From Xestospongia bergquistia (lineage: Eukaryota > Porifera > Demospongiae > Haplosclerida > Petrosiidae), in NCBI GenBank assembly GCA_963965975.1, contig OZ014411.1:21852249-21916248 (forward strand): a DNA stretch of 64,000 nucleotides, given 5' to 3'. The position numbers were made by a program, and so were the translations under genes. Below the pieces are notes generated by a model. That model was given only the letters and a program-made list of their open reading frames with translations, searched no databases and was not told the DNA's origin. Positions 21,901 to 64,000 of the stretch are shown here, piece by piece (the stretch's first letter is position 1; every line of letters starts with the position of its first letter).

Positions 21901-24900
21901 TTTCACTGATATCAGTTTTGAAATCTCATCATTGGAACTTAAAAATCAATCTTTAACAAAAGAAGTCATTTCAACATCATCGATATTGCAGAGTGCTTTA
22001 AGAGCTGAAAAGATTGCAAATAACAGCTATGTAAGCATCAAAAATGAAGAGAAACGAATGCATAGATTATATAAGTTTATTAAAGATAACAGTGTTCTAT
22101 TAGCAGTTCAATTCACTAGAATGTTCTTTGATGTTACCGTTGAAACACAGACACCAGTTTTAGTGCCACTCCACGTTGTGTATGAAGTGCCTTTTCATAA
22201 AACAAGTCATGAAGAAATAGTTGTTGTTGACATATCTTCATCAACTGATCTTATTCAAAAAACTATTTTTGACAACATTGTTGATGATATCATTGATGAT
22301 ATTTTGGAGATTAATTCTGTACGAAAAAGAAGAGATACTCACATTACATATCTGTCTGATATATTCAAACAAAACTGTGACCTACAAACAAAATTGCTAC
22401 ATTATCTAAATGAACTTAATAGCACACTTGAAGCAATTCACGAAAACACCAGGGAAACACTTTCTTCAATAACAAAAGCTAAGAATAATGCAGAAATGAA
22501 ATATAAAGCTACTGTGGATGTTCTAATGGAAATTGAAGCCAATGCTTCATTTGTAAATCTTCTAGAGCAAAAAGAATACACCTTCTATCAGAGTCAATTG
22601 GATATTTTCAATGCAATGCTAACCAGAGTCTCTGAATCAGAGGTTGTGGAATGGAAGACAAACATGGAAGATATACATAATGGCAGTGTAGCTTTTTTTG
22701 GTCGAAAGTGTTATAGCTTTAGTGACTGTCTTAAAATTGCTTTGAAGAGCCTTCAACAATTGCTGTCTGGAATTTCTAATCCTAAAGCAATGTCCATTCT
22801 TGAATCAGTTTCTGAAATACAACAGTCACTGCTAAGTATTGCTAGTAATGGTTCTCAAAATTATACTCAAATTAATTCTATTTTGACAGAAACAATGCAA
22901 ATAATGCAATCTTTAGTCGACTTAGACTATTGGTGCACACCTCCTCCAGAAATAACTGAACAGCCGGAACATGAACTATATATACAATCTGGTGATACAC
23001 TCAAACTTAATTGCAAAGGTCATTCCATCCTACCATTGACATACGTATGGAAGAGAAACAACAAAACCATTCCTTTTGCAACCTCTGGAAATCTTGTAAT
23101 ACAAAACATGGAGATATCACATTTAGGTGTTTATCAATGTGAAGTAAGAAATGCTGTAGGACTAACAAAGAGTCACCAATCTATTGTGTATGTTTACAAA
23201 ATCCCAACCTTCATTCAACACCCAAAATCAGTGTCAACTATACAATATGATGATCCCTACTTTATATGTGATGTTAGTGCTTATCCTGTGCCAGTCTATG
23301 ACTGGTTCTTTAGACCAAATGCTACAGCTTCTTGGAGTATCATTAAAAATGAAAACAGGAGTCTTTTGTATATTACAAATGCTACTTATGCAAACGAGGG
23401 ACAGTATTATTGTAATTCTTCAAATGATTTTGGTTCAGTTGTATCTCAAGTAGTTAACCTTGCGGTCCTACCTGGGAGCCCAGTCGAAATGAGTTACCAT
23501 GTAGAATGTACCTATGAAGCAAAGTCATCTACAAAACACTCTATGAGGAATGAAAAGCAAGCTTTCTTAGCAGCAGTTGGAAAAGTATTGAATCTAACGA
23601 CAACACCTGTATTAAACATAACATTCAATGATTATGCCATAAGCTTTGAACTTCTAGCACCAAAAATATTATCAGTCAATAATGCTGAAAAATGGTTTAA
23701 TGATACCCAGAGAAGTCTCAGTGAACTCTATAAGGCTAAATTAGCCATAAAGTTATCTTTCAATAACATCAGTAATCCAATTGTATTCCTAAGCAAGAAA
23801 AAGATGTATACAGTCAAAGTCAAAAGCATTCAAATGCACCCACTTTTGTTCAAATGTCCAGTTGGATATGAATTTGATTTAACTGATCTTGCTTGTGGTA
23901 AGATAAAACTAGTTTATGATATTGCTACTGTATTTTTAAAAAATTCTGCTCTATGTAGTTGGCTGTAAGCCTGGTTATTATTGGAAGGGTTATGTCAAAG
24001 AGGTACTTCGACCAAAACCTAGTGTGATGTTAGAAATCAGATATCCTACTTGTTCTTTGTGTGACAAGGGATCATTCCAAGATGAAAAAGCTGCTGCTAG
24101 TTGTATTCAATGCCCAGCAAACTATTCCACTTCAATGAGTGGTTCTAAATCTATAAGAGATTGTCAAAGTATGAAAGTTAAATCTATTATTATTATTATA
24201 AAATTTTAACCATGTACCTGTACAGAGCTATGTCAACCTGGCACACACTCCTCTACTGGTTTTGAACCTTGTTTATCATGTCACTTGGGATATTATCAAT
24301 TGAGATATGGACAGACATCTTGCATTCCATGTATTCATGGAGCTAACATAACAGCCTGCACATCAGGTAAGTAAGATTTAGTTATTAATGAGATTTAACA
24401 ATCAACAGTACAATGTAAACCTGGTAATTACTCATCCACTGGATTTGAGCCTTGTGTCAACTGTCACAAAGGTTATTATCAACCTTTATATGGACAGAAG
24501 ACTTGTTTGAAGTGTGTTCCTAACTCTAACATTACAGCTTGTGATTCAGGTATTACAAAAATCTTTAAAATATATAATAATTGATTCAAAACAGTATTTT
24601 GTGAGGCTCATCATTATTCTTATACTGGACTCAAACCTTGTTTATCATGTCCAAAGAGTTATTACCAACCAGCAGAAGGACAACGCTTGTGTCTTTCATG
24701 TTCTTCAAACTCGACCATAACACAATGTTTACCAGGCTAGTCTCATGTCATTATATTACAACACTCAATTATGTGTCATGTCACCCCAGATCCCTGCAGT
24801 CTACCACCATATAAAGGACCTTGTTATGGTGATGTTCCTAGGTACTTTTATAATACAAAAAGTGCCAAGTGTGAAATATTCAGTTATGGAGGATGCTATG

Positions 24901-35395: not shown

Positions 35396-38300
35396 TCAAT
35401 ATATTAATTCAGTTTTATCTAGGACAAAATCAAATATTAACGATTCTCTCCTTCTAATAGTTACACTTGGTGAATAAGTTTCATCCTCTGACTTATCTAC
35501 TGATGATTTATCTAGTAGTGGGCGTGTCTCTTCTCTTCTACTGTTTTTATAACACTGCCTTTCTTTTAACTTGCAGTAGACATGTACAAGAATTGTAAGA
35601 AAGAACATTACCATAGCAACTGCAATAGATATAACAGTTATAAATGGTGTATTGACTTTGTAGACACTTTGGTTAATAAATGAGTTAACAAGAGCTAGTA
35701 CAAGAAGATTGATGTGAAATGATTGCTCAAGAAAAGATAGTCGTCTATCACGATAGACATTGTGTCGTAAAATATATAGTATGATCACTTCAACAAGGAT
35801 GATGATGTAGTCATTAACAATATGCAGTGATCCTGAAGTACAAATAAATATTGTAGTCAATAGTAAGCGAACAATTAACAACAGACCAGTCCAGAACCGA
35901 TATCTCTCTTTGTATGGGCCTGTATATGCATCAATAAATGGTAGTAGTTTTAATACAGGATCATTTGTACTACGACAACATAAATGACTGTATCGTTGTA
36001 ACCATTGAGTAGAAAATATTAAACAAGAGTATATTATTGATAATACTAGTACCACAACAGAGAATGCTACCAATATGGAATGTTTGGTAGTTCCATAGTT
36101 AATATTACCATCTATACTCCACACTGTCCACTGATAACTACCACATTTTAGTTTGGATGTCATCAAAGCATTTGTAGTAGTTCGTAATAATTTAGTAAAT
36201 GATATCAGTACAAGTGTTGCCAGAACAGGAACTATATTACGTCCAAATGTCTTAGATAGCCATGTAGATTGTCTAGATATCATAATAATACCAGCTACAA
36301 GAGACCATACATAAAATGGAAAGACAAACTGTAGCCATGTTTTCCAGTATGCATCTAATCCATCAAACAAGCATACCTCAATACCAAAGTCCAAATTGAT
36401 CCATGATATGAATTGACTAACTATAATGATATTTCCACTGGGAAAGAAAATTGATTCATTGAGTTTTATAATATTAGCATAAAACAACAATCCATTGATA
36501 GTACCTACTGACACAGTTAAGTTCAGTATTATTAGTAATGTTACTAATAATATTCCTGAGAACATAAACACAATCAGCAGGAGGAGATAAATGTTAGTAC
36601 ATTTAGAACATGCATTGGAGCCAAGTTTGAGACTGAGTCCTGACTGACACTGACCACAAAGGAGACCCATTCTATTGTGATTACATTGAAGATCTGTACC
36701 ATTATCTAAATTAAATTTAATCTTTGAGGATTTGCAATAATCAAATGGACAGTTCTTATATGCAATTGTACAGTTGTAGTCTTTTTCAAAACCCAACCAA
36801 ACATTATTACTAGCAGATATAAGTAAAGGATGGTGTTGCCATGATATGTTACATTGTACATAAGATGCAATGATGTCATTACAAACACACTCGTATGATC
36901 GCCCAAGTACCATACCTGATGGACAATTTAAGAACTGAACTTTCAATGTCAGTGATTTTGAAAAAGGGTATGGTGTTGAAGATACACTAATCGTGGCAGT
37001 ACCTTGTGAAACATTTGATAATAATTGAATTGCTTTATAAACAAAACATCTGCATTGAATGCTTGTCTTGTCATTATCAGCATTACTAATAAGTTGTAAG
37101 TTAGGTGATGATGATATAACAATGTATGTACCAGGACTGGAACCACCACAGTAACCAACTGTAATTAATGATATGTTAAATGATTGTCCTGGATAGACTA
37201 CAATTGGATTTGGATTTGAATAATAATCAATAATATTGTGTTGGTTGCACAAACAAACACCAATTGGATCTGAAGAGACACTAGTATAAGCTTGACTTTT
37301 ATATGCAATTGTGTAGCAGTTTACTACATCTTTAAAGTTTCTAATAATCATATACCTATTTAGTAACCAACAATTATGAAATAACCCTCCATATAAGTTG
37401 TCCCCAGTAATATAAGAAGTATTATTTTGAAAAAAAGCTTTAAATTTAGGAAAGGTACAAATGTTTAGTGACCATGCCAAACTGTGTGGATTATTGATAT
37501 TGGAGTACAAGGCTCCTCCTTTAGTAGCAGTATTGTTGATAAAAATAACTGAACCATGTTTTTCTGTAGTAGCACATCCACTATTATTGACAACCAGACC
37601 TCCTCCAGCATATGGTGTAGTATTGTTAGCTATAATGTTGTATCCACTGAAGTGTAGTCCACAGCGATCACATCCAATACCAGTCATATTGTTGTCATAT
37701 ACTTGAATATTACTAATGTCAACCTTAACACCTATATTTAAACAATATATGAGCACAGCATTCTTTCCTGTTTTGGAATTTCTAACTACAATATTCGAAA
37801 AATAAAACCTAGAACATTTTTGATCCTTAATAAAATAAAATGTCTGCATAGCAGTAGCTATACCTCCTGATATAGCAGCATTGCCATCAAAAACACAATG
37901 TGATATATTTAATGATGCACATCTTGGATTCAAAAACAAACTTAGTGAGGCTAATCTAACACTTTTGTTATCATCAAAGAAACAGTTACAGATTGTAATG
38001 TATAATTTCTCAACAGTTCTAAATTGACTTGGATTTAATAGTGCGTGATCATATGTGCTCACATATAAACCTGTTCCAAAATTGTTGACAAAGGAACTGC
38101 TAGAAACTGTGACAGAGTTTGTAGTTTTTTCATGACTAAAGAGTCTCAAAACCAATGCAGCATGATCCAAACAATATAATCCATTTCCTATGTAACTGTT
38201 GAAGTTGAAATTACAACTATTGACCACAATATTGAAATGACTTAGACTATACCACCATGACCATATTAACAATCCTGAGGCATCTGTTCCAGCTTGATTA

Positions 38301-39904
38301 TGAAAGAATACACTGTTTACTACTGTAATGAAATGAATATGCTCATTACCTGGAATATCATCTGATGAAGACACATACAAGCCTCCACCTCTCTTGTTTG
38401 CTATGTTATATGAAAAATTTGAATTCGAGACAAGAATGTTTGATGGGTTTACATTAGCATCAATAATAATACCAACACCAGCACCATGTGTAGCACTGTT
38501 ATTTATAAATGTGGAGTTGTGTATAATGATATTGCTGGAATGATTGCTTTTAATAGAGAGCTTGCTTGTTGTACCTCTGAACTGAAGAAATTTTAATTTT
38601 AATCCACCACCTAAAACCTGTTTTTTATTAATTGAATTATTTCGGTAGTTTTTGTAAAAAACAGAATGCAATACAGTGATATTAGCATGATCGCTATTGT
38701 TAATAACACTAATGTTAGCTGCACTAGCAAGACAACCAACTATATGTGAGAAATAGCATCCTTTAATTGTCACTTCACTATATATAGTGTTAGCAGTATA
38801 AAGATATAAGCCTCCACCTAATGCAGGTAGATTACCAATAAAGACAGAGTCACTGATATTGTAATGTACCTCCTCTAAACTGTTGGATATAATAGTAACA
38901 CTGTGTCCTCTCTGGGTGCTTTCAATAGAACAATTTTTAACACCAAGACCATTGTTTTTAAAGAAACATTGACCTGATATAATGATGAATGCTGAATTGT
39001 TTATAAGTACACCCGTTCCATATGTATTCTGTATTGTAATATTGTATATGTTAACCGATGATACATTTTGAAATAAAATAACAGCTCCACTAGATGAACT
39101 ACAACCATTAACTACTAGACCTTCCAAACTAATGTAGCAAGAGTTTATAAATCGTAGACCAGCCTCGGCAGTAGTGAAATTGATTGTTGGGCTAACGACA
39201 CTACTGTCTTTTCCTTCATAGTTGTATTTAAAAATACTTTTGAAGACAATTTGGCTAGCTTTAGCAACAACTAAATTTTTTTCAAGTTTATGCTCACCTT
39301 CCATGAACACAAAGGTAGTGTTGGATACAAAGAAGTATGTTACATTTTGAGAGTAGAAAGAGAGAGTATAACATATTGAACTGTTTGGACATTTCTGCTC
39401 TTTATAGGATTTGACATACCAAACAATCTTACTGCAACACAACAAGCAAAACAAGGAGAGTGTAATTATCAACAACAAGTTTATCTAAAATGGCAGAGAT
39501 TGTAATGATATGATAAATTAAATTAAAAACTCTAAAGTGTAGAACTACTAACTTATGATTTACAAACAATGCTAATATAATGCTAACTGGGCAAAACATG
39601 TGTATTGTTTTCTTGCATGCCTTCTTATTTTTTGATTGTCCTGAATATAGCCATTGTAAAGTCTGATAATGAATTTGCATACAACAAAACATCACTTGAC
39701 AATGAAAGACAAACAATGTACATAAAGTTATGTAGCTATAATTTTTGAACTCAAAGTTTATATCGAAACTCTCACAATCACTATTATTTTCAATGATTCT
39801 ATCAATTGATACATTAGACTGAATGATCAATTGACAAAAGTAAGCAAAACACAGCAAGATTATGAAGGATTATCTCTAAGATAATATAATGAACAACTCA
39901 CCAT
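35396..39904 (-). CDS. Gene E: beta-helix ectodomain with multi-pass membrane C-terminus, about 1363 aa
   Basis: The main exon (39484-35396, stop TGA) is one long frame without an ATG near its start. It is preceded by the acceptor ccattttag. The reading ATG (39904-39902) followed by the donor gtgagt and then ATA AAC TTG TTG gives MINLLLIITLSLFCLLCC, a good signal peptide, so I infer an upstream exon ending exactly in the start codon with a 417-bp intron. Residues about 60-700 are Asn-rich repeats with motifs such as NSTFINNSATHGAG and ANKRGGGLYV, typical of right-handed parallel beta-helix surface proteins (Pmp-like). A Cys-rich segment follows (GLLCGQCQSGLSL, about 930-960). Then come seven or eight hydrophobic helices up to about residue 1310, and a short cytoplasmic tail rich in Ser, Asp and Arg. 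Role (adhesion or receptor) is inferred. Confidence 0.8.
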
Positions 39905-48177: not shown

Positions 48178-48183
48178 TTTATT
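48178..48183 (-). promoter_or_regulatory. Polyadenylation signal of gene C
   Basis: AATAAA on the minus strand about 100 bp after the stop codon. Confidence 0.6.
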
Positions 48184-48282: not shown

Positions 48283-48458
48283 TTAGTTAATATCACAACT
48301 GCTAGTGATATTGTCACCAGAACCATTGTAGAAATGAGCTGAACATTGACCACAATTTGATGGTACACATATAGCATCAGGTATGTTTGGACATTGGGCT
48401 GTGTCACACGGATTGCCTGGACATTGTACGACTTTAACGTCTTTCTTGCACTTTATAC
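48283..48458 (-). CDS. Final exon of gene C: Cys module and stop
   Basis: 57 codons plus TAA: CKKDVKVVQCPGNPC, PDAICVPSNCGQCSAHF, ending SSCDIN. No membrane anchor or GPI-type hydrophobic tail, so secretion is expected. Confidence 0.85.
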
Positions 48459-51400
48459 CTGTCATAACAAAAGTGTTAAAATAAGGTTTAAATAAACATT
48501 AAAATTTGTGGTCAATTTAACAATTATTTTCAGTCATTTCTAATAAGAATAAAACACTTACCACATTGTTGTAGACAGTTATATAAAGTGTCAAAGTTGT
48601 TTTGGTTACCATCACAACCACCATATGTAAATTTCTCACATCTACCCACAACATAGTTATAATACCATCGAAGGGTATTGTTAGTACATGGACCACTAAC
48701 TGGTAACAACAAACACATATCTACAGAAAATGAAATTAAATTGAATTGATTGCATCCAAATAGTTATTAGTTTGTATTTTGATAACAATTTGGACAAAAT
48801 AGAATTCATCATATTCTGGATTAATTATTCCTTGTAAAATAATTACCATAACTTCTTGGAATGTTAATCGGATTTAATTTCATGCCTCCAACATAACTGT
48901 ACCCTGCAAACAAATTCCAGCCATAGACAGTGACAAACAATTTACCATTTGGATTCGAGTGCGTTACTGTATTGTTACCATAAAAAGATGTTGAATAGCC
49001 ATACCCATAGATAGAACCATCTGAACCATATATTGGAACCCATGGTGGATTGATAAGAACATTGTTGATCAATAAATTCTCGTTAAAGTAAGCATTATTT
49101 GGTACAACCACACTGTAATAACTATCACCACTTGGCAGTAGTGAGGAGAATTGGATGGAGTGTTCATACTGTTCTATTGGTGGCACTGTGTTAAGGGAAG
49201 GGTCACCATGGCTCCCACCAGCATGTCTTTGGGCATTTCCAATTTGAGCAACATAGATTGGTTGATCAGAGATAATACTACAGTATGTATTGCTGTCTGT
49301 GTAAAACCAATTGGTGTTGTTTTCATCAAAATTTATATATTCAGTACTATAATTTGTACCACAAGATTTGACTGCATTTGTTTTATTGTTAGTAGCAATC
49401 ACTTTGTAACTTTGTCCATTGTTTCGACCTATGTGTGGTGATAACAAAAATGTCTTTCCCCATGTTATTGTTGGTGTGAGTTGTGTAACGATTGTGTCAG
49501 CATCAAAAGTTCCAGCTGGAACTTGGGCAGCTTCATGTCCACTGATAATCGTGAGTGGACTATCTGATATAATTTTGGTTCCAGTGAGATCAACATAAGG
49601 CTTAAAAACAAAGAATGTCTGAAGGGAATGAAGAACAAATTTGAAGGAATGACCAGCTGAAACAATTATGTCAACAGCAGCACTGTCCTGAGGATCTGAT
49701 GGAACAATAATGTCATTATTTGGAATGATAGTCACGTTGCTATTATTAAGGCAGCCAATAATCATGAACTGACTTGTTCGATCTGAAAGACCAAATGTAG
49801 ACACAACATAGTATGTGTATTGAGTTGTTGGTTGTATATGACATGGAAGAGCTAAATATGACACAAAATCTGAAAGATGGCTACGGAAGCTCCATGCAAT
49901 AACTGATATTGGCTCTGTGTCTAAAGATGAAACTTTTAGACCCTTTTTCCTCCAAGAAAAGGTATTATCTAACACTTCATAACTTGCTGGTATAGTGACC
50001 TTATGAGGGTTGTGATAACTAGTTGTACCCATATATGAGAAGTTGCCATCAAGTGATGTGACTTTGAAATTAACAGGATTTGTTTTCATAGTATGAACAT
50101 ACAATATACGTTCATTGGATCCATCATTAACCTCATAGAATCCCACAAAGAACTCACTACTGTATGTGCTGAGGTCAACCTGTGGTTCTGTAATGAATAA
50201 CAATATATATAAAGTAAAAATTCCACTGTAGTACTAATTATAGGGTATTGTTTAAAGGAACATAAATTACAATGGATGCGAATATTTACATTTTCATCAG
50301 AGTTATAGAGCTTACTATAATGATCAGTCACATTGGTTTCATCAACTATAAACATTCCACTTGTCATACAAAAAGTCTTTAATTAAAATAATGTTATTAT
50401 AATTAGTAAAATTTTTAATGAATAGCTTTTGCTATCAGTCAAATTGAAGAAAAATAAAACACTAATTTACTTTGAGTAAAAATTGGCATTAGTGTAATTA
50501 TAAAACCAGTTAAAGAAAATGAATAAGTTGCTGGAAGTTGTGAATTATTTATCAAAAAGTATCAGTTTTAGATCCTGTGTCTATTCAATAATTGCAAAAA
50601 AAACAGTTGATTATAATCACATGTTAACATTACACATCAGTAACTACCTTATGAATGGATTGTTACAAATTCTCTATATAATTAAGAACTAGCACCAAAC
50701 TAATTAGTTTTGATTAAAAATTTTACTACATTTAAATGTGATTTTAAAAGCAATATACAAGTATTTACAAGTGTTTAGAAGTATGAAAGATAAAATCTAT
50801 AAATTTTTGACTATTAATATAAAGAGTCACTTACCACTTATGCCTGAGCCAGATTCAGGAAAGATTTCTGACCCAGATCCAAAATCTAGTTAAAAATTAT
50901 AGTGTGTACACAAGAAATGAAGAAGTACAAAAATAACATATTGTTTAAGGTTTAATTATTTTAAAAAATGAGAATAATGTGTGAGATTATAATTTTTTAC
51001 CAGGTATATCAGTTGGAACAGGTTTAACTAGAGGAGAGAAAGAAAAAGCAGGATGAGAACCAATATATGCTATATCATTTTAGCAATCTTTTGCAGTGTT
51101 ACATGCTTGATCACAATAGCATTCGTAAATTAATAAATGCTCATTTACCTTGAGAAACAGTTGGTGTAGGTATAAGTGTAGAACCACTTAAAGAATATGA
51201 AAAACCTAGATGTGTACTACTTGTTGAATGGTATGGAGTTTTAAATTCTGTGTCTATATGATAATGGCAATAAAATTTGATAATTATTATATGACATTAT
51301 TATAACATCATTGACTACGTATACTATTACTTTACATACGAACTGTTAGGAAACAATATTTATTTATACAGAAATATCAACAATCCTACTAGTTTTGACC

Positions 51401-54400
51401 AGACTAAAATATGACTACTACAAGATGTGATATAAAATGTAAACAACATAAGAGAAATGATTTTGAGATAAAAAAATTAATTTTATTTCATAAGAATTTC
51501 AACGGCAGTTCAAGGAATTTAGTTTATAATTATTATATTCTTGGACTTAGTGTACATAGTTGGATATAGCATTGTTTTGTGGCATGTGATTATAAATACA
51601 GAATAATTTTTAAAAAAGATCTGTTAATAACATATATTTTGGCCATTATTGAATAGTCACTTACAATTTATTCCAGACCCTAAGCCAGATTCAGGCAAGA
51701 ACTCTGAGGCAGATTCAAATTAAGAAAAAAAATTAATAGTGAATACACATGAAATAAAGAAGTACAACAAATTACAATTTTTATTAAAAGTAAGCTTGTT
51801 ACATTAAATTTTTTATTAAAACTGTGACTAATGTAATGCATGGTTTTCTATTTTTTCCTTACCAAATGTATCAGTTGTAGTAGGTGAAACTATAGTAGAG
51901 GAAGAAGTAGCAGGATTATTAGCGCTCGCTTACCTTGAGAACTAGGTGTTGTAGAACCACTTAAAAATGAAGAACTTGTTGGAAGAATTGTACTACTTGT
52001 CAAAGGGTATGAAATTTCAGAATCTGTATCTATATAACAATGTTAACAAAATTGATATCATGTAAGAGATCAAATAATCATAATTATCACATCAATTAAC
52101 TAAATGTGCTACTACTTTAAACTGAACTGTTAGAACGAAATCTTTACCTTGAGAACTACGTGTTGGTAAAACTGTAGAACTACTTAAAAATGAAGAACTT
52201 GTTGGAAGATGTGTACTAATTGTCAAAGGGTATGGAGTTTCAGAATCTGTATCTATATAACAATGTTAACAAAATTGATATCATGTAAGAGATCAAATAA
52301 TCATAATTATCACATCAATTAACTAAATGTGCTACTACTTTAAATTGAACTGTTAGAAAGAAATCTTTACCTTGAGAACTAGGTGTTGGTAAAACTGTAG
52401 AACTACTTAAAAATGAAGAACTTGTTGGAAGATGTGTACTACTTGTCAAAGGGTATGGAGTTTCAGAATCTGTATCTATATAACAATGTTAACAAAATTG
52501 ATATCATGTAAGAGATCAAATAATCATAATTATCACATCAATTAACTAAATGTGCTACTACTTTAAACTGAACTGTTAGAACGAAATCTTTACCTTGAGA
52601 ACTACGTGTTGGTAAAACTGTAGAACTACTTAAAAATGAAGAACTTGTTGGAAGATGTGTACTACTTGTCAAAGGGTATGGAGTTTCAGAATCTGTATCT
52701 ATATAACAATGTTAACAAAATTGATATCATGTAAGAGATCAAATAATCATAATTATCACATCAATTAACTAAATGTGCTACTACTTTAAACTGAACTGTT
52801 AGAAAGAAATCTTTACCTTGAGAACTAGGTGTTGGTAAAACTGTAGAACTACTTAAAAATGAAGAACTTGTTGGAAGATGTGTACTACTTGTCAAAGGGT
52901 ATGGAGTTTCAGAATCTGTATCTATATAACAATGTTAACAAAATTGATATCATGTAAGAGATCAAATAATCATAATTATCACATCAATTAACTAAATGTG
53001 CTACTACTTTAAACTGAACTGTTAGAAAGAAATCTTTACCTTGAGAACTACGTGTTGGTAAAACTGTAGAACTACTTAAAAATGAAGAACTTGTTGGAAG
53101 ATGTGTACTACTTGTCAAAGGATATGGAGTTTCAGAATCTGTATCTATATAACAATGTTAACAAAATTGATATCATGTAAGAGATCAAATAATCATAATT
53201 ATCACATCAATTAACTAAATGTGCTACTACTTTAAACTGAACTATTAGAAAGAAATCTTTACCTTGAGAACTACGTGTTGGTAAAACTGTAGAACTACTT
53301 AAAAATGAAGAACTTGTTGGAAGATGTGTACTACTTGTCAAAGGGTATGGAGTTTCAGAATCTGTATCTATATAACAATGTTAACAAAATTGATATCATG
53401 TAAGAGATCAAATAATCATAATTATCACATCAATTAACTAAATGTGCTACTACTTTAAACTGAACTGTTAGAAAGAAATCTTTACCTTGAGAACTACGTG
53501 TTGGTAAAACTGTAGAACTACTTAAAAATGAAGAACTTGTTGGAAGATGTGTACTACTTGTCAAAGGGTATGGAGTTTCAGAATCTGTATCTATATAACA
53601 ATGTTAACAAAATTGATATCATGTAAGAGATCAAATAATCATAATTATCACATCAATTAACTAAATGTGCTACTACTTTAAACTGAACTGTTAGAAAGAA
53701 ATCTTTACCTTGAGAACTACGTGTTGGTAAAACTGTAGAACTACTTAAAAATGAAGAACTTGTTGGAAGATGTGTACTACTTGTCAAAGGATATGGAGTT
53801 TCAGAATCTGTATCTATATAACAATGTTAACAAAATTGATATCATGTAAGAGATCAAATAATCATAATTATCACATCAATTAACTAAATGTGCTACTACT
53901 TTAAACTGAACTGTTAGAAAGAAATCTTTACCTTGAGAACTACGTGTTGGTAAAACTGTAGAACTACTTAAAAATGAAGAACTTGTTGGAAGATGTGTAC
54001 TACTTGTCAAAGGGTATGGAGTTTCAGAATCTGTATCTATATAACAATGTTAACAAAATTGATATCATGTAAGAGATCAAATAATCATAATTATCACATC
54101 AATTAACTAAATGTGCTACTACTTTAAACTGAACTGTTAGAAAGAAATCTTTACCTTGAGAACTACGTGTTGGTAAAACTGTAGAACTACTTAAAAATGA
54201 AGAACTTGTTGGAAGATGTGTACTACTTGTCAAAGGATATGGAGTTTCAGAATCTGTATCTATATAACAATGTTAACAAAATTGATATCATGTAAGAGAT
54301 CAAATAATCATAATTATCACATCAATTAACTAAATGTGCTACTACTTTAAACTGAACTATTAGAAAGAAATCTTTACCTTGAGAACTACGTGTTGGTAAA

Positions 54401-57400
54401 ACTGTAGAACTACTTAAAAATGAAGAACTTGTTGGAAGATGTGTACTACTTGTCAAAGGATATGGAGTTTCAGAATCTGTATCTATATAACAATGTTAAC
54501 AAAATTGATATCATGTAAGAGATCAAATAATCATAATTATCACATCAATTAACTAAATGTGCTACTACTTTAAACTGAACTATTAGAAAGAAATCTTTAC
54601 CTTGAGAACTACGTGTTGGTAAAACTGTAGAACTACTTAAAAATGAAGAACTTGTTGGAAGATGTGTACTACTTGTCAAAGGGTATGGAGTTTCAGAATC
54701 TGTATCTATATAACAATGTTAACAAAATTGATATCATGTAAGAGATCAAATAATCATAATTATCACATCAATTAACTAAATGTGCTACTACTTTAAACTG
54801 AACTGTTAGAAAGAAATCTTTACCTTGAGAACTACGTGTTGGTAAAACTGTAGAACTACTTAAAAATGAAGAACTTGTTGGAAGATGTGTACTACTTGTC
54901 AAAGGATATGGAGTTTCAGAATCTGTATCTATATAACAATGTTAACAAAATTGATATCATGTAAGAGATCAAATAATCATAATTATCACATCAATTAACT
55001 AAATGTGCTACTACTTTAAACTGAACTGTTAGAAAGAAATCTTTACCTTGAGAACTAGGTGTTGGTAAAACTGTAGAACTACTTAAAAATGAAGAACTTG
55101 TTGGAAGATGTGTACTACTTGTCAAAGGGTATGGAGTTTCAGAATCTGTATCTATATAACAATGTTAACAAAATTGATATCATGTAAGAGATCAAATAAT
55201 CATAATTATCACATCAATTAACTAAATGTGCTACTACTTTAAACTGAACTGTTAGAAAGAAATCTTTACCTTGAGAACTACGTGTTGGTAAAACTGTAGA
55301 ACTACTTAAAAATGAAGAACTTGTTGGAAGATGTGTACTACTTGTCAAAGGGTATGGAGTTTCAGAATCTGTATCTATATAACAATGTTAACAAAATTGA
55401 TATCATGTAAGAGATCAAATAATCATAATCATCACATCAATTAACTAAATGTGCTACTACTTTAAACACGAACTGTTAGAAAGAAATCTTTATTATTATA
55501 TACTAATTTTGTGAGAATTCGTTTTGACTAAAATGTGACTAGAATATCAACAAGTGTATAATTAGTAGCAGTATATCTGGAACAATATAACCATAAAGAC
55601 TGGAAGCTTAGGATTACACAAATTTAATAAACTCATGAAGGTGGACATAATTATTATACATCATAATTATGGTAGAAAATAGTAATAGGACTGTGTGCAA
55701 CGCTGACATGCTAGACAGTAAAATTAGGAAAAAAGGTCAAATTTGTAAGCTTATGAAGTTTGTGGGAATGTACATATAGATAGCAGTTTCTTTAATGACA
55801 CCAAATATGGTGCCATAAAACTTGTTAATAGTATACATAGTATACACTATTACAAGCAGTCACTTACCATTAAGCCCAGACCCTAAGCCAGATTTTAGGT
55901 CAAGTCCTGAGCCAGAGCCAAATCCTTTATAAAAAAATGGTATATACACGCACATGAATGAAGAAGTACAAGAAATTATGTATTGTATTGTTTGCTGATT
56001 AGAGATAATTGTTTTAAAATGTGACTAATGTATTGTATGTCTTTCTGATTTTATCTTACCAGGTGTATCAGTTGGAGTAGGTGAAATTATAGAAGAGGAA
56101 GAAGCAGGATGACAACCAATATCAGCTATATCACTACAACAATCATTCATATTATAACAATTTTGATCACAATAACATCCATTATTGTTACAAGGTGGTG
56201 ACAGGAACATTACACAACATCCAGAATAGCTGAGATTAAGTGCCAAACATGAACCTAAAATTAACATAATATGAACAAATTATTTAGTTTATAGTGCTAG
56301 TTTTAGCATAACATGAACAAATTAACTTAATAGTACTTGTTTACCTGGAGTAACAGTTGAAGTAGGTAAAACCATAAAACCACTTGAAGAAGATGAAGAA
56401 ATTTTTGGAAGATGTATACTACTTGTCAAAGGATATGGAGTTATAGATTCTGAGTATGTATAAAAATGTCATTAAAACTGAATCATGTAATAGATCAACT
56501 CATCACAATATCAGTAACTAAATATGCTGCTACTTTACACATTAATTGTTATTGAGGAAACTTCATTATTATATAATAATTTTGTGAGAATTAGCAGATA
56601 ACATGTTGTTCAAGATTTAAATTTTTAATAAAAACTGTGACTAGTGTATTGCATGATCTTCTATTTTTATTTTACCAAGTGTTCCAGTTGGAGTAGGTGA
56701 AATTATAGGAGAGGAAGAAGAAGGAGGATGACAACCAATATCAGCTATATCACTACAACAATCCTTCAAATTATAACAATTTTGATCACAATAACATCCA
56801 TTATTGTTACAAGGTGGTGACAGGAACATTACACAACATCCAGAATAGCTGAGATTAAGTGCCAAACATGAGCCTAAAATTAACATAATATAATCTAATT
56901 AATTTACTTCAATAGTGCTCCCATACCTGTAGGAGTTGGTGTAGGTGTAACTATAGAGCCACTAAAAGAAGGTGCAGCGCTTATTGGAAGATGTGTACCA
57001 CTTGTCAAAGGATGTGGGCGTCTAGATTCTGTGTATATTTAAAAACAACCATAAAACATAAATAAAAAGGTATAACTAACTATGTATTGTTTGTTTAATA
57101 AAGATAATTGCTTTAAAATGTGACTAATGTATTGGATGTCTTTCTGATTTTATCTTACCAGGTGTATCAGTTGCAGTAGGTAAAACTGTAGGAGAGGAAG
57201 TAGAAGTAGGATGACAACCAATATCAGCTATATCACTGCAACAATCATGCCAAAAATGACAGGATTGATCACAATGGCATCCATTATTGCTACAAGGTGA
57301 TATAGATGTTACGCAACACCCAGAATAGTTGAGATTAAGTGCCAAACATGAACCTAAAATTAACATGAACAAATTTTTTAGTTTATAGTGTTCACTTACT

Positions 57401-60400
57401 TACCTGGAATAACAATTGGTGTGGGTGTAATTATAAAAGAAAATGAAATACTTGCTGGAAGATGTGTACTACTTGTCGAAGGGTATGGAGTTTTAGAATC
57501 TTTGTCTATATAAAAAATGGCATCTAAAATTAATACTATGTAAGAGATAAACTGATCACAATCATCACATCAGTGAATAAATATGCTACTATTTTACTCA
57601 TGATTGTGTGGAAGAAACTTTAAGATGTAATTTAAAAGCAAATAATAAATTAGGAAAAAAATATTGCTCATAAAAAGTTCCTAAATCAATAATTTTGATA
57701 TTATTTGTTAGTAGAGTTGGTGGGAATGTATAGACAGTTATATGTGCTACTTATAAGAATGAAATATGTTGTAAAATAAAATTTGTTTTACTTTGACCAT
57801 TAACACAAATAGTCACATACGATAATACAGATGAATTATATATTGTTTAAAGTTTATTATAAAGAAATATGAACTTACCACAATCATTTGTGACTTCATT
57901 ATTTTCAATAAAATATCTTGGAGAACAATCTGCACACACATCAGGATAACAAACTGCATCAGGATAGTTAGTACAAACACTTCTATTACAAATATCTGAA
58001 CTACACTTCTTGTTTGGTTGACCAAATGAACAGCCTATTTAAAAAATAATAAAAACAAAATTAACTAGATATTAGTTTGTGATACAAATGCATCGTAATA
58101 ATCAATATATATATATATATATATAAATATTACCACAATATATAACTCACCACAAAGATCAATGCATTCATTAAGAGTGTGAAATTGATTTCTATTTCCA
58201 TGACAACCACCATAAATGAATAATTCACATTGACTTGAACTGGTGTTAAAAAACCAACGAGGAAATCTACCTTTACATGATCCAACTTTAGGAGGTAGAT
58301 GACAAATAGCTAGAAAATTATATAATATTTATTTTATTTCTTATTTCAATAAACATGCATGCATGAAAAATTGTAAATAACATCATATAATGCATTCTGT
58401 AAAAAACATAAATATTGCTTGTAAAATAATTACCATTGCTTGGAATGTTAATAGGATTTAACTTCATGCCTCCAACATAACTGTGCCCTGCATAAGTTGT
58501 CCAGCCATAAATAGAGACAAACAGTTTACCATTTGGATTAGGATGTGCTATTGTATTGGTACCACTGAAAGATGTTGAATAGCCATATCCATAAATAGAA
58601 CCATTTGATGCATATATTACAATCCATGATGGATTGACAACAACATTGTTAATCAATAAACTCTGGTTAAAGTAAGCATCATTTGGTACAACTACACTGT
58701 AATAACTAGTACCACTTGACAACAATGTAGAGAATTGGATGGAGTGTTCATATTGTTCTATTGGTGGCACTGTGTGAAGGGAAGGGTCACCAAACTTGCC
58801 ACCTGCATACTGTGTACTAACACCAATTTGAGCAACATAGATTGGTTGATCAGAGATAATACTACAGTATATATTGTTACCTGTGTAAAACCAATTGGTG
58901 CTGTTTTCATCAAATTTGATATATTCATCACTGTAATTTGTACCACAGGTTTTTATTGCAATTGTTTTATTGTTAGTAGCAATCACTTTGTAACTTTGTC
59001 CATTGTTTCGACCTATGTGAGGTGATAGCAAAAATGTCTTTCCCCATGATATTGTTGGTGTGAGTTGTGTAACAATTGTGTCAGCATCAAAAGTCCCAGC
59101 TGGAACTCGGGCAGCTTCATGTCCACTGATAATTGTAAGTGGACTATCAGATATAATTTTGGTTCCAGTAAGATCAACATGAGGCTTATAGACAAAGAAT
59201 GTCTGAAGGGAATGAAGAGTGAAGACAAACGAATGTCCAGCTAAAACAATTACATTAGCAGAAGCACTGTCCTGAGGATCTGATGGAACAGTGATGTCAT
59301 TGTTTGGAATGATAGTCACATTACTGTTATTAAGACAACCAATAATCATGAACTGACTTGTCTGATCACTCCAACCTAATGTAGACACAACATAGTATGT
59401 GTATTGATTTGTTGGTTGTATATGACATGGAAGAGCTAGATGGGACATAAAATCTGCATTACTACGAAAACTCCATGCAACAACTGATATTTGCTCTGTG
59501 TCTAGAGATGAAACTTTAAGACCTTTTCTCCTCCAGGAGTAGTTATTATCTAACACTTCATAACTTGCTGGTATAGCAACTTTACAAGGGTTCTGATAAC
59601 TAGTTGTACCCATAAATGAGAAGTTGTTATCAAGTGTTGTGACTTTGAAATTAATAGGATCAATTTTCATAGTATGAACATACAATGTACGTATAGTAGA
59701 TCCATGTACATGCTCATAGAATCCCATAAAGAACTCAGTACTGTATGTACTGAGGTCAATCTGTGGTTCTATATTGAAAAGAAAACATTTAAATATAGAG
59801 GATAAGGTAATTATTTTGATGAGCTAAACTTAAACAACTACTTATTCTAAATATATTTGTATTGACTATAAAATGTTAAAAATAGAAAAGTATTGTAGGG
59901 TTTGCTATGAATCAACACTTCACATAAAACAACATATGTCCTACTAAATAAAGTTTCTGAGAAAGTCATAAAATGTAAGGAGTCTGTTTGATAACACCAT
60001 CTTAAACAAGCCTAAACTATTATTGCAACATAGAGATCCTTACATAGTAGCAACATTAATGGTTATTTAGTATAAAGTTGTAGAAAAAATTAAAGAAAAG
60101 TTTACAAGAAGTAAAAAGTAAATGTAAAACATGTGGTTCTATGGTATCTATTGTGAGAATGTATTAACTCAAGTTCATGTTTAAAGGTGAACAAATCATG
60201 GAAGTGAATATTTATAATTTTATTGTTGCTCCAAAACTTACTGCACTGATCTGTCAAATCAGTTTCACCAACTATAAACTTTCCTCGACATTGTCCACAG
60301 TTATCAACTATACATTGGGCATCAGGAAAATTAGAACAGGTTTCATGATCACAAGGATTATTAGGACAATATATTGGTGGTTTATCAGGAGGACATGAAC

Positions 60401-63400
60401 CTAATAATATTAAGAAGAAAAGAATACAATTACCTTTTTCCATTTACTTACTGCAAATGCTTGTGACATTGTGACCAGAAGTGTTAAAGAAATGAGCTGA
60501 ACATTGACCACAACTTGATTGTACACATATAGCATCAGGTATTTTTGGACATATTACTGTGTCACATGGATTTTCTTGACATTGTACGACTTCAAGGCTC
60601 TTCTCACATTTTACACCTGTCATAATAAAAGTCTTAAATTAAAATAATGCTTACATAATCAAACTTTTCATCAAATTACTTTCGTATTCAATCAAATCTA
60701 ACAAGTCTAATATACTTACTACATTGTTGTAGACAGTTATGTAAAGTTTCAAAGTTGTTTTGATTACCATCACAACCGCCATATGTAAATTGCTCACATC
60801 TACCCACAGCATAGTTATAATACCATCGAAAGGTATTGTTAGTACATGGACCACTAACTGGTAACAACAAACACATATCTACAAAAAATACAATGAAATT
60901 GAATTAATAAGATCTAATTTTGTATTTGTTTTCTTGATCAAGAACTTACCACAAATATTTGTGACTTCATTATTCTTGTAATAATATCTTGGAGAGCAAT
61001 CTGAACACTCATCTGGATAACAAACTGCGTCAGGATAGTCAATACAAACACTGCTATCACAAATATCTGAACTACATTTGTTAGTTGGTTGACCAAATGA
61101 ACATCCTAGGTGAATAACAATTACATACATTGCAAAAAACATATAGCCTTAATGTTTATATAACTCACCACAAAGATCAATGCATTCATTAAGAGTCCAA
61201 AACTGGTTTTTATTTCCATGACAACCACCATAAATGAATAATTCACATTGACTTGAACTGGTGTTAAAAAACCAACGAGGAAATCTACCTTTACATGATC
61301 CAACTTTAGGAGGTAGATGACAAGTAGCTAGAAAATTAATATTACAATAGTAATTAATACCAATCTATAACTTTATAAGTAAATAAAAGTGCACATAAAT
61401 TGAATTTGCAAATTTAAGTAATTTTTGCTTAAGAATAGTTACCATTGCTTCTTGGAATATTAATTGAATTTAACTTCATCCCTCCAACATAACTGTACCC
61501 TCCATAAGCTGTCCAGCCATAGACAGAAACAAACAATTTACCATTTGGGTTAGGATGTGCTATTGTATTGGTACCACTAAAAGATGTTGAATAGCCATAT
61601 CCATAAGCAGAGCCATCTGAACCATATATTAGAACCCATGGTGGATTGATAAAAACATTGTTGATCAATAAACTCTGATTAAAGTAAACATCATTTGGTA
61701 CAACCACACTGTAATAACTAGTACCCTTTGACAGTAATGAAGAGAACTGGATGGAGTGTTCATATTGTTCTATTGGTGGAACTGTGTTAAGGGAAGGGTC
61801 ACCATAGTTACCACCACCATATCGTGTACTAACACCAATTTGAGCAACATAGATTGGTTGATTAGATATAATACTACAGTATACATTGTTGGGTGTGTAA
61901 AACCAATTAGTGTTGTTTTCATCAAATTTGATCTGTTCTGCAATGTAATTTGTATCACAGGTTTTGACTGCATTTGTTTTATTGTTGGTAGCAATTACTT
62001 TGTAACTTTGTCCATTGCTTCGACCTATGTGAGGTGGTAAAAGAAAAGTCTTTCCCCATGTTATTGTTGGTGTCAGTTGTGTAACAATAGTTTCAGCATC
62101 AAAAGTCCCAGCTGGAACTCGGGCAGCTTCATGTCCACTGATGATTGTGAGTGGATTATCAGATATAATTTTGGTTCCTGTAAGATCAACATGAGGCTTA
62201 TAGATGAAGAATGTCTGAAGGGAATGAAGAGTGAAAACAAACGAATGTCCAGCTAAAACAATTATATTAACAGCAGCACTGTCCTGAGGATCTGATGGAA
62301 CAGTGATGTCATTGTTTGGAATGATAGTCACATTACTGTTATTAAGACAACCAATAATCATGAACTGACTTGTCTGATCACTCCAACCTAATGTAGACAC
62401 AACATAGTATGTGTATTGAATTGTTAGTTGTTTATGACACGGAAAAGCTATGTAAGACATGAAATCTGCTTCATTCCGAAAGCTCCATGCAACAACTGAT
62501 ATTGGCTCTATGTCTAGAGATGAAACTTTAAGACCCTTTTTCCTCCAGGAATAAGTATGATCTAACACTTCGTAACTTGCTGGTATAGTGACTTTATTAG
62601 GTTTGTTATAACTAGTTGTACCCATATAAGAGAAATTGCCATCAAGTGATGTGACTTTGAATGTAACAGGAGTTATTTTCATAGTATGAACATACAATGT
62701 ACATTCTTTAGATCCATGTACATGTTCATAGAAACCCACAAAGAACTCACTGCTCTTTGTACTGGGGTAAATTTGTGGCTCTAAAATGAAAATAAGTAAA
62801 ACATTGCTTTCAAACATAGATTGTGTTGAGATATTTCAATAAGGTGAGCTACTTGTATATCATGCGTCAACAAATGTAGATATGATAGATAGGTGTGAAT
62901 ACTGCAAATTTAAATTCAAAGCCCATTCAAAAGAATGAAAATTAAATAGTGAAAATTTAAAATGTTACATTGTCTTAAAACTCACTGCACTGATCTGTGA
63001 TGTCAGTTTCATTGATTACAAACTTTCCTTGACAATGTCCACATATGTCAAGTACACATTGAGCATCTGGAAAATTAGAACACACTAGACTGTCACAAGG
63101 ATTATTAGTACAATATTTTGGTGGTTTATCAGGAGGACATGAACCTAATATAATTTAAGCAGATGCTGTCATTTTCAAATTATTAGTACTTACTGCAACT
63201 ATCTGTGACATTATGACCAGAAGTGTTAAAGAAATGAGCTGAACATTGACCACAACTTGATGATACACATATAGCATCAGGTAAGTTTGGACATAGTGTT
63301 GTTTCACATGGATTGTCTGGACATTGTACTTGTTGAATATCCTTACACTTTTCACCTGTTTTAAAAACATAACATGATGTTTATATAATTGTTAAAACAT

Positions 63401-64000
63401 TAGATCAAATACAATAATGATTTAGTTTTTCAGTCCAAACTAACAAGGCTAACACACTCACCACATTGTTGTAGACAGTTATGTAAAGTTTCAAAGTTGT
63501 TTTGATTACCATCACAACCACCATACATAAATTGTTGACATCTACCCACAGCATAGTTATAATACCATCGAAGGGTATTGTTAGTACATGGACCACTAAC
63601 ATGTAACAGCAAACAAAAGTCTACAGAAACAGTAATGAAATAAAATTGATAAGATCAAATGTTATTAATTTGAACAATGTGTGCACGTGTGCCAAAATTT
63701 AAGATATGTCAATATATTCTGGATTTTATAAAGAAAATTTAATATTTCTTTTAAAATAATTACCATTGCTTCGTGGAAAGTTCATTGGATTTAACTTCAT
63801 TCCTCCAACATAACTGTGCCCTGCATACTCTCTCCAACCATAGATAGAGACAAACAATTTACCATTTGGATTAGGATGTGCTATTGTATTGGTACCACTA
63901 AAAGATGTTGAATAGCCATATCCATAGATAGAACCATTTGAAGCATATATTAGAACCCACGGTGGATTGATAAGAACATTGTTGATCAGTAAAGTCTGGT
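48283..64000 (-). CDS. Gene C: giant secreted IgGFc-binding/Kunitz/somatomedin-B/mucin mosaic, 5' end beyond window
   Basis: About 45 exons on the minus strand end at TAA (48285-48283), and every internal exon I can place has phase 1-1 borders. Order from N to C in the window: IgGFc-binding domain 1 (cut by the edge), Kunitz, two Cys modules, IgGFc 2, Kunitz, Cys module, Kunitz, two Cys modules, IgGFc 3, Kunitz, Cys module, three alternations of Ser/Thr-rich exon and somatomedin-B exon, a Ser-Gly exon, 16 tandem Ser/Thr exons, short linkers, IgGFc 4, Kunitz, final Cys module. The visible coding sequence is about 3000 codons. No start with a signal peptide and no stop is evident between blocks, so I treat it as one gene, though separate tandem genes cannot be excluded. 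No membrane helix is seen. The domain mix (IgGFc-binding as in mucus proteins, protease inhibitors, mucin stalk) suggests a matrix, mucus or barrier protein. Confidence 0.75.
48562..48720 (-). CDS. Kunitz domain (gene C, P1 Thr, last copy)
   Basis: 53 codons: SGPCTNNTLRWYYNYVVGRC, YGGCDGNQNNF, CLQQC. Confidence 0.9.
48847..50187 (-). CDS. IgGFc-binding domain 4
   Basis: 447 codons, one exon, phase 1-1. FFVGFYEVNDGSNERILYVH, VTIPASYEV, PLTIISGHEAAQVPAGTF, TVPPIEQYEHSIQF. The most divergent of the four copies in its first third. Confidence 0.9.
50316..50366 (-). pseudogene. Relic of a Cys module before IgGFc domain 4
   Basis: Encodes SGMFIVDETNVTDHY followed by a donor gtaagc, aligning with CRGKFIVGETDLTDQC at the end of the exons that precede IgGFc 2 and 3. 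The first part of the exon and its acceptor are gone, and the last Cys has become Tyr. Confidence 0.6.
50835..51889 (-). CDS. Linker exons between the array and IgGFc domain 4
   Basis: Exons 51863-51889 (VSPTTTDTF), 51149-51253 (Ser/Thr unit, 105 nt), 51001-51027 (VKPVPTDIP) and 50835-50885 (DFGSGSEIFPESGSGIS), all phase 1-1. The two 27-nt exons are the surviving tails of somatomedin-B exons (see relics). The 51-nt exon has acidic residues beside Ser-Gly pairs. Confidence 0.65.
51028..51120 (-). pseudogene. Dead somatomedin-B exon upstream of the 51001-51027 exon
   Basis: Aligns with the intact SMB exons (plus-strand agcaggatgagaaccaatat, then atgctatatcattttagcaa, then gatcacaataacat-like), but Cys codons are lost and stops are present. 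The new acceptor cctctag is at the same point as in the relic at 51890. Confidence 0.65.
51661..51715 (-). pseudogene. Ser-Gly exon with lost acceptor
   Basis: Resembles 50835-50885 and 55868-55924 and keeps the donor gtaagt, but the acceptor end reads cttaatt, without AG. Skipping it leaves the frame intact because its borders were phase 1-1. Confidence 0.5.
51890..51933 (-). pseudogene. 44-bp intron made from the remains of a somatomedin-B exon
   Basis: The intron begins gtaagc and ends ctactatag. Its last half (atcctgctacttcttcctct) matches the tail of intact SMB exons, where the same place reads ctataattt. A TAA to TAG-like change made a new acceptor and the Cys-rich body was deleted. 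Confidence 0.6.
51934..55374 (-). repeat. Array of 16 Ser/Thr-rich exon-intron units, 223-bp period
   Basis: Each unit is a 105-nt phase 1-1 exon (35 codons; 18 Ser or Thr in the consensus, beginning DTDSETPYPLTSSTHLPTSS) plus a 118-bp intron starting gtaaag and ending tatatag. Exon high ends lie at 52252, 52475, 52698, 52921, 53144, 53367, 53590, 53813, 54036, 54259, 54482, 54705, 54928, 55151 and 55374; the last exon of the array in transcript order (51934-52029) is 96 nt and older-looking. Introns are as conserved as exons. Among the variants, Arg or Pro alternates near the end of the unit (PTRSSQ or PTPSSQ), and TAC CCT or TAT CCT is synonymous. Together they add about 555 residues of mucin-like stalk. 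Confidence 0.9.
55375..55867 (-). other. Intron between the Ser-Gly exon and the array
   Basis: After the last array-type intron sequence (to about 55480) the unit breaks off; no exon seen in the rest. Confidence 0.5.
55868..55924 (-). CDS. Short Ser-Gly exon
   Basis: 57 nt encoding GFGSGSGLDLKSGLGSGLN. The SGSG with a nearby acidic residue resembles a glycosaminoglycan attachment site. Related exons: 50835-50885 (functional) and 51661-51715 (damaged). Confidence 0.65.
56060..57505 (-). CDS. Alternating Ser/Thr-rich and somatomedin-B-like exons
   Basis: Exons: Ser/Thr 57404-57505, SMB 57159-57353, Ser/Thr 56927-57028, SMB 56676-56873, Ser/Thr 56345-56449, SMB 56060-56254. The SMB exons read SGCC...CNNNGCYCDQNC then DCCSDIADIGC, eight Cys in the somatomedin-B pattern (CxCDxxCxxxxDCCxD), and end in a Thr/Pro-rich tail such as SPTPTDTPG. 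All are phase 1-1. SMB domains often bind proteases, inhibitors or matrix partners; the target here is unknown. Confidence 0.8.
57879..58034 (-). CDS. Eight-Cys module, CSFGQP variant
   Basis: CSFGQPNKKCSSDICNRSVC then NYPDAVCYPDVCADC. 156 nt, phase 1-1. Confidence 0.8.
58151..58309 (-). CDS. Kunitz domain (gene C, P1 Lys)
   Basis: 53 codons: CHLPPKVGSCKGRFPRWFFN, YGGCHGNRNQF, CIDLC. Trypsin-like P1 Lys, almost identical to the copy at 61169. Confidence 0.9.
58434..59768 (-). CDS. IgGFc-binding domain 3
   Basis: 445 codons in one exon with the same hallmarks as copy 2 (FMIIGCLNNSNVTIIPNNDI, PLTIISGHEAARVPAGTF, TVPPIEQYEHSIQF). Confidence 0.9.
60242..60616 (-). CDS. Two eight-Cys modules (exons 60452-60616 and 60242-60400)
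   Basis: First: C..S..VVQCQENPCDTVIC, PDAICVQSSCGQCSAHFF. Second: CPPDKPPIYCPNNPC, SNFPDAQC, NCGQCRGKFIVGETDLTDQC. Same order as at 62986-63355, so the whole Kunitz-module-module-IgGFc block was duplicated. Confidence 0.8.
60720..60878 (-). CDS. Kunitz domain (gene C, P1 Thr)
   Basis: 53 codons: SGPCTNNTFRWYYNYAVGRC, YGGCDGNQNNF, CLQQC. Nearly identical to the copies at 63462 and 48562. Confidence 0.9.
60950..61105 (-). CDS. Eight-Cys module, CSFGQP variant
   Basis: CSFGQPTNKCSSDICDSSVC followed by DYPDAVCYPDECSDC; the spacing matches the other Cys modules but with CSDC or CADC instead of CGQC. A near-identical copy is at 57879-58034. The intron before this exon happens to be open in frame and starts with an ATG and hydrophobic residues; I read it as intron because the acceptor is strong. 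Confidence 0.8.
61169..61327 (-). CDS. Kunitz domain (gene C, P1 Lys)
   Basis: 53 codons. CHLPPKVGSCKGRFPRWFFN, then YGGCHGNKNQF and CIDLC. Lys at P1 predicts a trypsin-like protease target, unlike the Thr-type copies. Confidence 0.9.
61443..62780 (-). CDS. IgGFc-binding domain 2
   Basis: A single 446-codon exon. Family hallmarks: FFVGFYE, VTIPASYEV, KGLKVSSLD, SVVAWSFR, YYVVSTLGWSDQTSQFMIIG, SLQTFFIYKP, PLTIISGHEAARVPAGTF, TVPPIEQ and SYYSVVVPN. This is the N-terminal domain of FCGBP-type proteins, usually extracellular. Copies 2 and 3 are very similar. Confidence 0.9.
62986..63355 (-). CDS. Two eight-Cys modules (exons 63194-63355 and 62986-63144)
   Basis: Each has the form C...VxC...NPC....C...PDAxC....CGxC...(F/Y)...VTxxC. 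The first is CKD...NPC..TLCPNLPDAICVS; the second CPPDKPPKYC then SNFPDAQC and CGHCQGKF. The module recurs throughout gene C; I know no certain Pfam name for it. Confidence 0.8.
63462..63620 (-). CDS. Kunitz domain (gene C, P1 Thr)
   Basis: One exon, 53 codons, phase 1-1. SGPCTNNTLRWYYNYAVGRC, then YGGCDGNQNNF and CLQQC, give the six-Cys Kunitz pattern. The residue after the second Cys (P1) is Thr, which is not trypsin-like. Confidence 0.9.
63764..64000 (-). CDS. IgGFc-binding domain 1, C-terminal part (cut by window edge)
   Basis: Matches the C-terminal part of the other three copies: YGYGYSTSFSGTNTIAHPNP, then LFVS and HSYVGGMKLNP. The donor gtaatt at 63763 leads to the Kunitz exon. Confidence 0.85.

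Follow-up and report, generated by a model that had tools for sequence, protein, structure and literature searches.

A 223-bp exon-intron unit repeated in register encodes a predicted Ser/Thr-rich linker in a probable secreted-protein gene of the demosponge Xestospongia bergquistia

The SmPoMuc mucins of Schistosoma mansoni are described as a multigene family, its genes lying in clusters, whose mucin-like repeats each occupy a small exon of their own within a tandem genomic unit of ~1 kb; the exon measures 27 bp, microsatellites lie between units, the intronic part is more than 93-94% alike, a gene may hold up to ~20 units, and the number of repeats was shown to vary in both transcripts and genes (PMC2576457). 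A comparable arrangement is reported from the spider silk genes Flag and MaSp2, where the unit consists of one or more exons together with near-identical introns, homogenised within the gene (PMC9779670, PMC3522626), and others cite SOWgp of Coccidioides and tenascin-X as further exon-intron repeats that evolve in concert (PMC2576457, PMC9779670). Here we describe an array of exon-intron units in the sponge Xestospongia bergquistia, found on the minus strand within a stretch of 64,000 nucleotides of contig OZ014411.1 (positions 21,852,249 to 21,916,248 of the forward strand; assembly GCA_963965975.1), hereafter the window. The array is real and well preserved, and its gene organisation is one that is known but not common; it is a multi-scale variant of that organisation, with a readable founding junction. 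With a probability of roughly 0.8, we interpret it as a linker of serine/threonine-rich (S/T) exons with phase 1-1 borders in a secreted-protein gene, amplified by duplication and unequal exchange.

As in SmPoMuc and Flag, each repeat has its own exon and intron, and the introns are near-identical within genes and diverged between them. Unlike SmPoMuc, the sponge units are only 223 bp long with a 105-nt exon, the gene carries other domains, and the array is known from genome sequence alone. The resemblance to silk is one of organisation, sequence relation lying outside the comparison, and silk repeats are described as mostly A, G, P and Q (PMC9779670, PMC3522626), unlike the S/T repeats of the sponge. 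A literature search of titles and abstract openings turned up no case of a sponge exon-intron array, which does not prove its absence from print.

Run on the window, Tandem Repeats Finder (TRF) placed 15.9 copies of period 223 at 51950-55492, with 99% match, 0% indels and a score of 6923; the runner-up among its 14 rows scored 324, and the array is beyond chance. Sixteen array exons start along the minus strand, all 15 spacings being exactly 223 bp, so that both TRF and exon spacing confirm the original prediction of 15 units with a 105-nt exon and a 118-bp intron, plus one unit with a 96-nt exon. All 16 acceptors terminate in TTATATAG, the donor is GTAAAG in 15 of 16 exons and GTAAGC in exon 16, and each of the 15 units is bordered by AG/GT. 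The array borders are phase 1-1, as had been proposed, and gain, loss or skipping of a unit preserves the frame; a retained unit intron would reach a stop codon after 18 codons. The predicted repeat segment spans 557 residues, of which 51.3% are S or T and 11.8% P, the mucin-like composition anticipated at the outset. The 15 full units are distinguished at just 6 of 223 positions, divided evenly between exon (3/105) and intron (3/118; Fisher p = 1), and mean pairwise divergence is 0.0091 in the exon and 0.0061 in the intron. At variant sites 23 and 124 all four combinations are present among the units, which must therefore have exchanged sequence or mutated in parallel. These divergences and combinations bear out the earlier view that introns are conserved like exons, and support a recent homogenisation of the whole exon-intron unit.

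The array has matches in at least 147 places of the same genome (146.46 Mb, 21 contigs), from which pieces were chosen for family analysis by their similarity to it; the number of arrays among them is therefore uninformative about the genome at large. In 13 of the 16 family pieces (all save L005, L008 and L027), TRF found twelve arrays with periods of 223-1270 bp, one also at double period, and exons were tied to repeat units in five arrays. One comprises 10 units of ~754 bp (the last 586 bp), each with an S/T and somatomedin-B-like pair; another comprises six units of ~773 bp (755, 980, 774, 775, 772 and 771 bp); a third has four units of 1270 bp (the last 1147 bp) with four exons each; and a fourth has two units of ~1490 bp. 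Units in these relatives were amplified together with their introns. In the 754-bp array, a 55-bp intron identical in all 10 units alternates with a ~408-bp intron that is 98.6% alike in the first nine of the ten, as in some MaSp2 genes with two alternating homogenised introns; the authors of the Argiope MaSp2 study state that they were aware of no other gene of this type (PMC9779670), and from its sequence the sponge array appears to be such a case. Intron divergence reached 0.074 in array A5 (L030), where the S/T exon alone was recognised and the figure may include other exons. When 129 S/T exons were placed in a tree, each along with 110 bp of intron, exclusive clades were formed by the window array (16 exons), the array of 754-bp units (10) and that of ~773-bp units (7). 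Adjoining another family member, at L022:4-2403 (G000:C1:6715004-6717403), an 18-bp repeat occurs 133 times; its minus strand has an open frame of 717 codons, giving GNTGIV-type hexapeptides, and its plus strand one of 616.

The alternative that survives best is that the assembly has the number of units wrong, having expanded or collapsed an array that in truth has far fewer or far more. Units that differ at so few positions invite such errors, and we regard this as unlikely rather than negligible. Against it stand the mosaic of variants across units and the arrays with other units in the same family; typical long reads also exceed the 3.4-kb length of the array. Those other arrays make it likely that units were truly amplified, even should the count in the window be off.

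Comparison across the family supports the array exons as probable real coding exons. Refinement in the fetched pieces gave 138 S/T exons, two with a stop, and 97 somatomedin-B-like exons, seven with a stop, although the count of 2 in 138 is biased because refinement began from protein similarity and forced multiples of three. Among 148 acceptors located by intron similarity alone, the expected frame was open for at least 90 nt at 137, the other frames at 4 and 2, and intron readings in the same test were open in 19 of 444. The intron queries derived from 67 S/T exons preselected as stop-free, and when the count was rerun without these, the predicted frame was open for 90 nt at 70 of 81 acceptors (55 of 66 outside the window's own region), the other frames at 4/81 and 1/81. 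An in-phase donor lay ahead of any stop at 132 of the 148 sites; donors in the two shifted phases, where the stop condition was not applied, numbered 29 and 5. With the frame unforced, gap lengths in 1039 pairs of at least 78% identity were divisible by three in 789 of 1267 cases in exons and 1015 of 4409 in introns. From the frame, donor and gap-length tests it follows that selection keeps the frame of the S/T exons open, a minority of them being decayed or misplaced. A non-coding minisatellite within one long intron, its 105-nt frames incidental and never spliced in, would likewise have exons as uniform as introns, and a ratio of nonsynonymous to synonymous differences (pN/pS) near 1, as is found here; the frame kept at non-query acceptors, the in-phase donors and the preference of exon gaps for multiples of three make this improbable.

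Beyond the frame, constraint is slight. Among 67 dereplicated S/T exons (from 129 usable among the 138 refined, all stop-free), pN/pS is 1.09 (bootstrap 1.00-1.21), compared with 0.78 in 40 somatomedin-B-like exons, whose Cys core by itself gives 0.59; their S/T tail gave 1.67 from short alignments, and no inference is drawn from it. The S/T content of the S/T exons, at 0.431, lies above the 0.358-0.405 reached after neutral simulation started from the same exons. The S/T exon thus appears to keep its frame and composition, its protein sequence being nearly unconstrained. Between paralogues, ~106 bp of intron has a mean identity of 74.5-78.1% in every exon-identity class (2202 of 2211 pairs; aligned positions only, which favours the intron), and the synonymous divergence of the S/T exons (pS 0.22) is near that of the paralogue introns. 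Exon and intron look equally conserved between paralogues because little except frame and composition constrains the exon, and special conservation of the introns was rejected, since between paralogues they diverge about like synonymous sites. Inside the array, intron divergence is 0.6%, as against the 75-78% mean identity among dereplicated relatives. Array introns at least as uniform as the exons, and the suggestion of silk authors that homogenised introns may favour homogenisation of coding sequence (PMC9779670), could be taken to mean that selection on the intron itself (for splicing control, RNA structure or recombination), and not whole-unit turnover, keeps the introns identical, which is the least probable alternative of all because paralogue intron identity so near synonymous divergence leaves no extra intron constraint visible.

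The founding junction of the unit is still readable. Upstream of exon 1 the intron sequence is ...AATAATAAAGATTTC..., that of the units is ...CTCAAG/GTAAAGATTTC..., and at the end of exon 16 stands ...CTCAAG/GTAAGCGAGC; the unit junction is a donor (GGTAA) fused to the upstream intron (TAAAGATTTC), the two sharing TAA as a 3-bp overlap and a working donor being left in place. Past the junction, the upstream intron is still similar, by eye, to the intron of a neighbouring S/T exon, for which reason the 118-bp intron has the look of a shortened hybrid produced in the duplication. The older state may be taken as S/T exons alternating with somatomedin-B-like exons, as they mostly do in the family, of which those next to the array site would have decayed. 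A short tandem duplication would then have linked an S/T exon's donor (GTAA), via the 3-bp TAA overlap, to a point midway along the intron preceding that exon, and the resulting 118-bp intron would have had a donor and an acceptor fit for use. By unequal exchange the 223-bp units could subsequently have multiplied, exon and intron being homogenised jointly, to give 15 + 1 units. With phase 1-1 borders, selection would see mainly frame, splice sites and S/T/P composition, so that unit number can change and the amino-acid sequence is nearly free.

The host gene runs for ~21 kb on the minus strand (Table 1). First in order, a signal-peptide exon (MTLLVFAVVL..., C1:21,921,922) lies 5.7 kb outside the window and is followed by a second, Cys-rich exon; joined, the two match stanniocalcin with E 0.0011 and 18.8 bits, under the cut-off of 23. 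Three IgGFc exons come next, each with Kunitz and Cys-rich exons after it, then three S/T and somatomedin-B-like pairs, a Gly exon and the array. Downstream of the array lie a somatomedin-B-like relic, one more S/T exon, a second relic, a fourth IgGFc exon, a Kunitz exon and a final Cys-rich exon with the stop codon. In both relics an AG at the equivalent site of the old exon (CTCTAG/TTAAACC at 50997-51122, CTATAG/TTTCACC at 51858-51916) is followed by ~27 nt and a GTAA donor, and a phase 1-1 mini-exon may therefore have been salvaged from each. The two of four IgGFc exons submitted to Pfam matched IgGFc_binding (PF17517) at 2.8e-45 and 5.1e-42 (155.3 and 144.6 bits, cut-off 25.6), and the Kunitz match stood at 3.5e-19. 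Somatomedin_B (PF01033) was matched at E <= 10 by 18 of the 20 exon peptides searched from 30 dereplicated ones, the best at E 0.0015, and member 1 scored 13.7 against a cut-off of 23.1; one of the 20 also touched an unrelated family (E 0.067). A Cys-rich exon profile searched against PDB gave a single, non-significant match (E 1.5). Relatives' IgGFc exons are likewise preceded by the same signal-peptide exons. When 458 of the 875 spliced residues, with 4 of the 16 array exons among them, were used to search proteins, one match emerged from the 7989 candidates scored, a tandem Cys-rich and fibronectin-III protein of Amphimedon queenslandica at 33% identity. The last IgGFc exon matches 175 proteins, and many of the 120 matches listed are 76-86% identical and lie on long ENA contigs; they would constitute a large family in public data.

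Table 1. The array and the exons of its host gene, in window coordinates
Feature	Position	Strand	Remark
Whole array	51934..55374	-	15 x 105-nt + 1 x 96-nt exon, 118-bp introns; predicted 557-aa S/T/P-rich segment
Array exon 1	55270..55374	-	transcribed first; exons 2-15 follow at 223-bp steps
Array exon 15	52148..52252	-	
Array exon 16	51934..52029	-	96 nt, diverged, donor GTAAGC
First unit intron	55152..55269	-	118 bp, GTAAAG...TTATATAG; 18 codons to stop if retained
Intron upstream of array, 3' part	55375..55540	-	unit-intron-like up to founding junction at 55492 (TAA common with donor)
Gly/Ser-rich exon	55868..55924	-	57 nt, phase 1-1
Somatomedin-B-like Cys-rich exon	56060..56254	-	
S/T exon	56345..56449	-	array-exon relative
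Somatomedin-B-like exon	56676..56873	-	
S/T exon	56927..57028	-	
Somatomedin-B-like exon	57159..57353	-	
S/T exon	57404..57505	-	
S/T exon 3' of array	51149..51253	-	
Somatomedin-B-like relic (3' part)	51858..51916	-	directly behind array exon 16; possible 27-nt mini-exon
Second somatomedin-B-like relic	50997..51122	-	in-frame stop
IgGFc_binding exon 4 (last)	48847..50187	-	borders by eye
IgGFc_binding exon 3	58434..59768	-	borders by eye
IgGFc_binding exon 2	61443..62780	-	borders by eye
IgGFc_binding exon 1	63764..64000	-	runs past window end
Kunitz exon	48562..48720	-	
Kunitz exon	58151..58309	-	
Kunitz exon	60720..60878	-	3' border by eye
Kunitz exon	61169..61327	-	
Kunitz exon	63462..63620	-	
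Cys-rich exon	57879..58034	-	no Pfam match
Cys-rich exon	60242..60400	-	3' border by eye
Cys-rich exon	60452..60616	-	borders by eye
Cys-rich exon	60950..61105	-	
Cys-rich exon	62986..63144	-	borders by eye
Cys-rich exon	63194..63355	-	borders by eye
Last exon	48283..48458	-	Cys-rich domain + stop codon (stop at 48283)
Polyadenylation signal	48178..48183	-	AATAAA

The original prediction took the array for a stalk, and this part of it finds no support. The protein looks secreted because the hydropathy peak of the seven segments scanned is the signal exon (1.81), the next value (1.56) falling inside an IgGFc domain. No transmembrane segment appeared in these seven, a hydropathy scan that did not extend to the remaining short exons (Kunitz, Cys-rich, S/T and somatomedin-B-like) or to glycosylphosphatidylinositol anchors, and the last exon ends with a Cys-rich domain and a stop codon; a membrane stalk was rejected on these grounds, and a linker in a putative secreted protein fits better. 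If the gene is transcribed and all units are spliced in, the product of the array is most likely an extended spacer, predicted to be O-glycosylated, in a secreted protein of mucus, matrix or glue type. The nearest protein design found, judged by analogy, would be the frog glue protein PRIT, in which a signal peptide likewise precedes several IgGFc-binding domains, there separated by disordered repeats with predicted O-glycosylation; unlike those of the sponge protein, its repeats are 18 residues long with Pro-Gly motifs, and the portions of the published account drawn on here do not mention Kunitz or somatomedin-B-like parts (PMC11237159). In the sponge Halichondria panicea, IgGFc-binding is named among the domains of receptor-like genes (PMC8242945).

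Several observations weigh against our interpretation. Just 8 of the 19 intron-anchored sites that fall outside the stop-free set of 129 exons are open, and some S/T exons of the family must therefore be decayed or misplaced. Exclusive clades are formed by three of the five arrays (A1, A2 and A5); the remaining two, A3 and A4, have a pair of S/T exons in each unit and form none. The order of variants along the window array is weakly structured, 493 of 10000 shuffles reaching the observed similarity at lag 2 and 6475 of 10000 at lag 1. Furthermore, a mucus or adhesive role for the array protein would be an argument from analogy.

Other features of the window and genome were recorded alongside. 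On the plus strand, 1713-7565 and 18354-23968 are two tandem gene copies, 88.5% identical over 5602 bp, with immunoglobulin (Ig) domains and, by eye, Sushi/EGF-like parts. The minus strand carries at 35396-39484 a single open frame of 1362 codons, its C-terminal part hydrophobic by eye, which matches right-handed beta-helix and Chlam_PMP repeats at scores under the cut-off. Upstream of the signal-peptide exon, a 393-bp repeat occurs three times (G000:C1:21923852-21925041) with no open frame above 62 codons. A contig of 18,997 bp carries COX1, with TGA as Trp; its protein agrees at all of 447 residues (100% identity) with an entry labelled Demospongiae, as befits a demosponge genome. COX1-like pieces with stops at G000:C6:3154917-3155898 and 3199148-3200446, on an 8.8-Mb contig, are probable nuclear copies of mitochondrial DNA.

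In an early-branching animal, then, one tandem duplication with intronic breakpoints would have made a lone S/T exon the start of a linker that can be extended, and the organisation of the array could let a flexible, probably sugar-bearing section of a protein lengthen or shorten without a break in frame. It offers a clear example of exons in which frame and composition are maintained and sequence hardly at all, with a possible parallel in the glue proteins of frogs. More speculatively, and with little confidence on our part, the IgGFc/somatomedin-B-like family might be a system for tuning length and composition, in which phase 1-1 short-intron cassettes of one, two or four exons are amplified repeatedly, so that the linkers of secreted surface or mucus proteins would come in a set of lengths that differs between individuals and is characteristic of each; such variation might play a part in adhesion, defence or individuality. 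The same building blocks, amplified at several scales within one genome, provide a natural comparison of how such cassettes spread and how they remain uniform.

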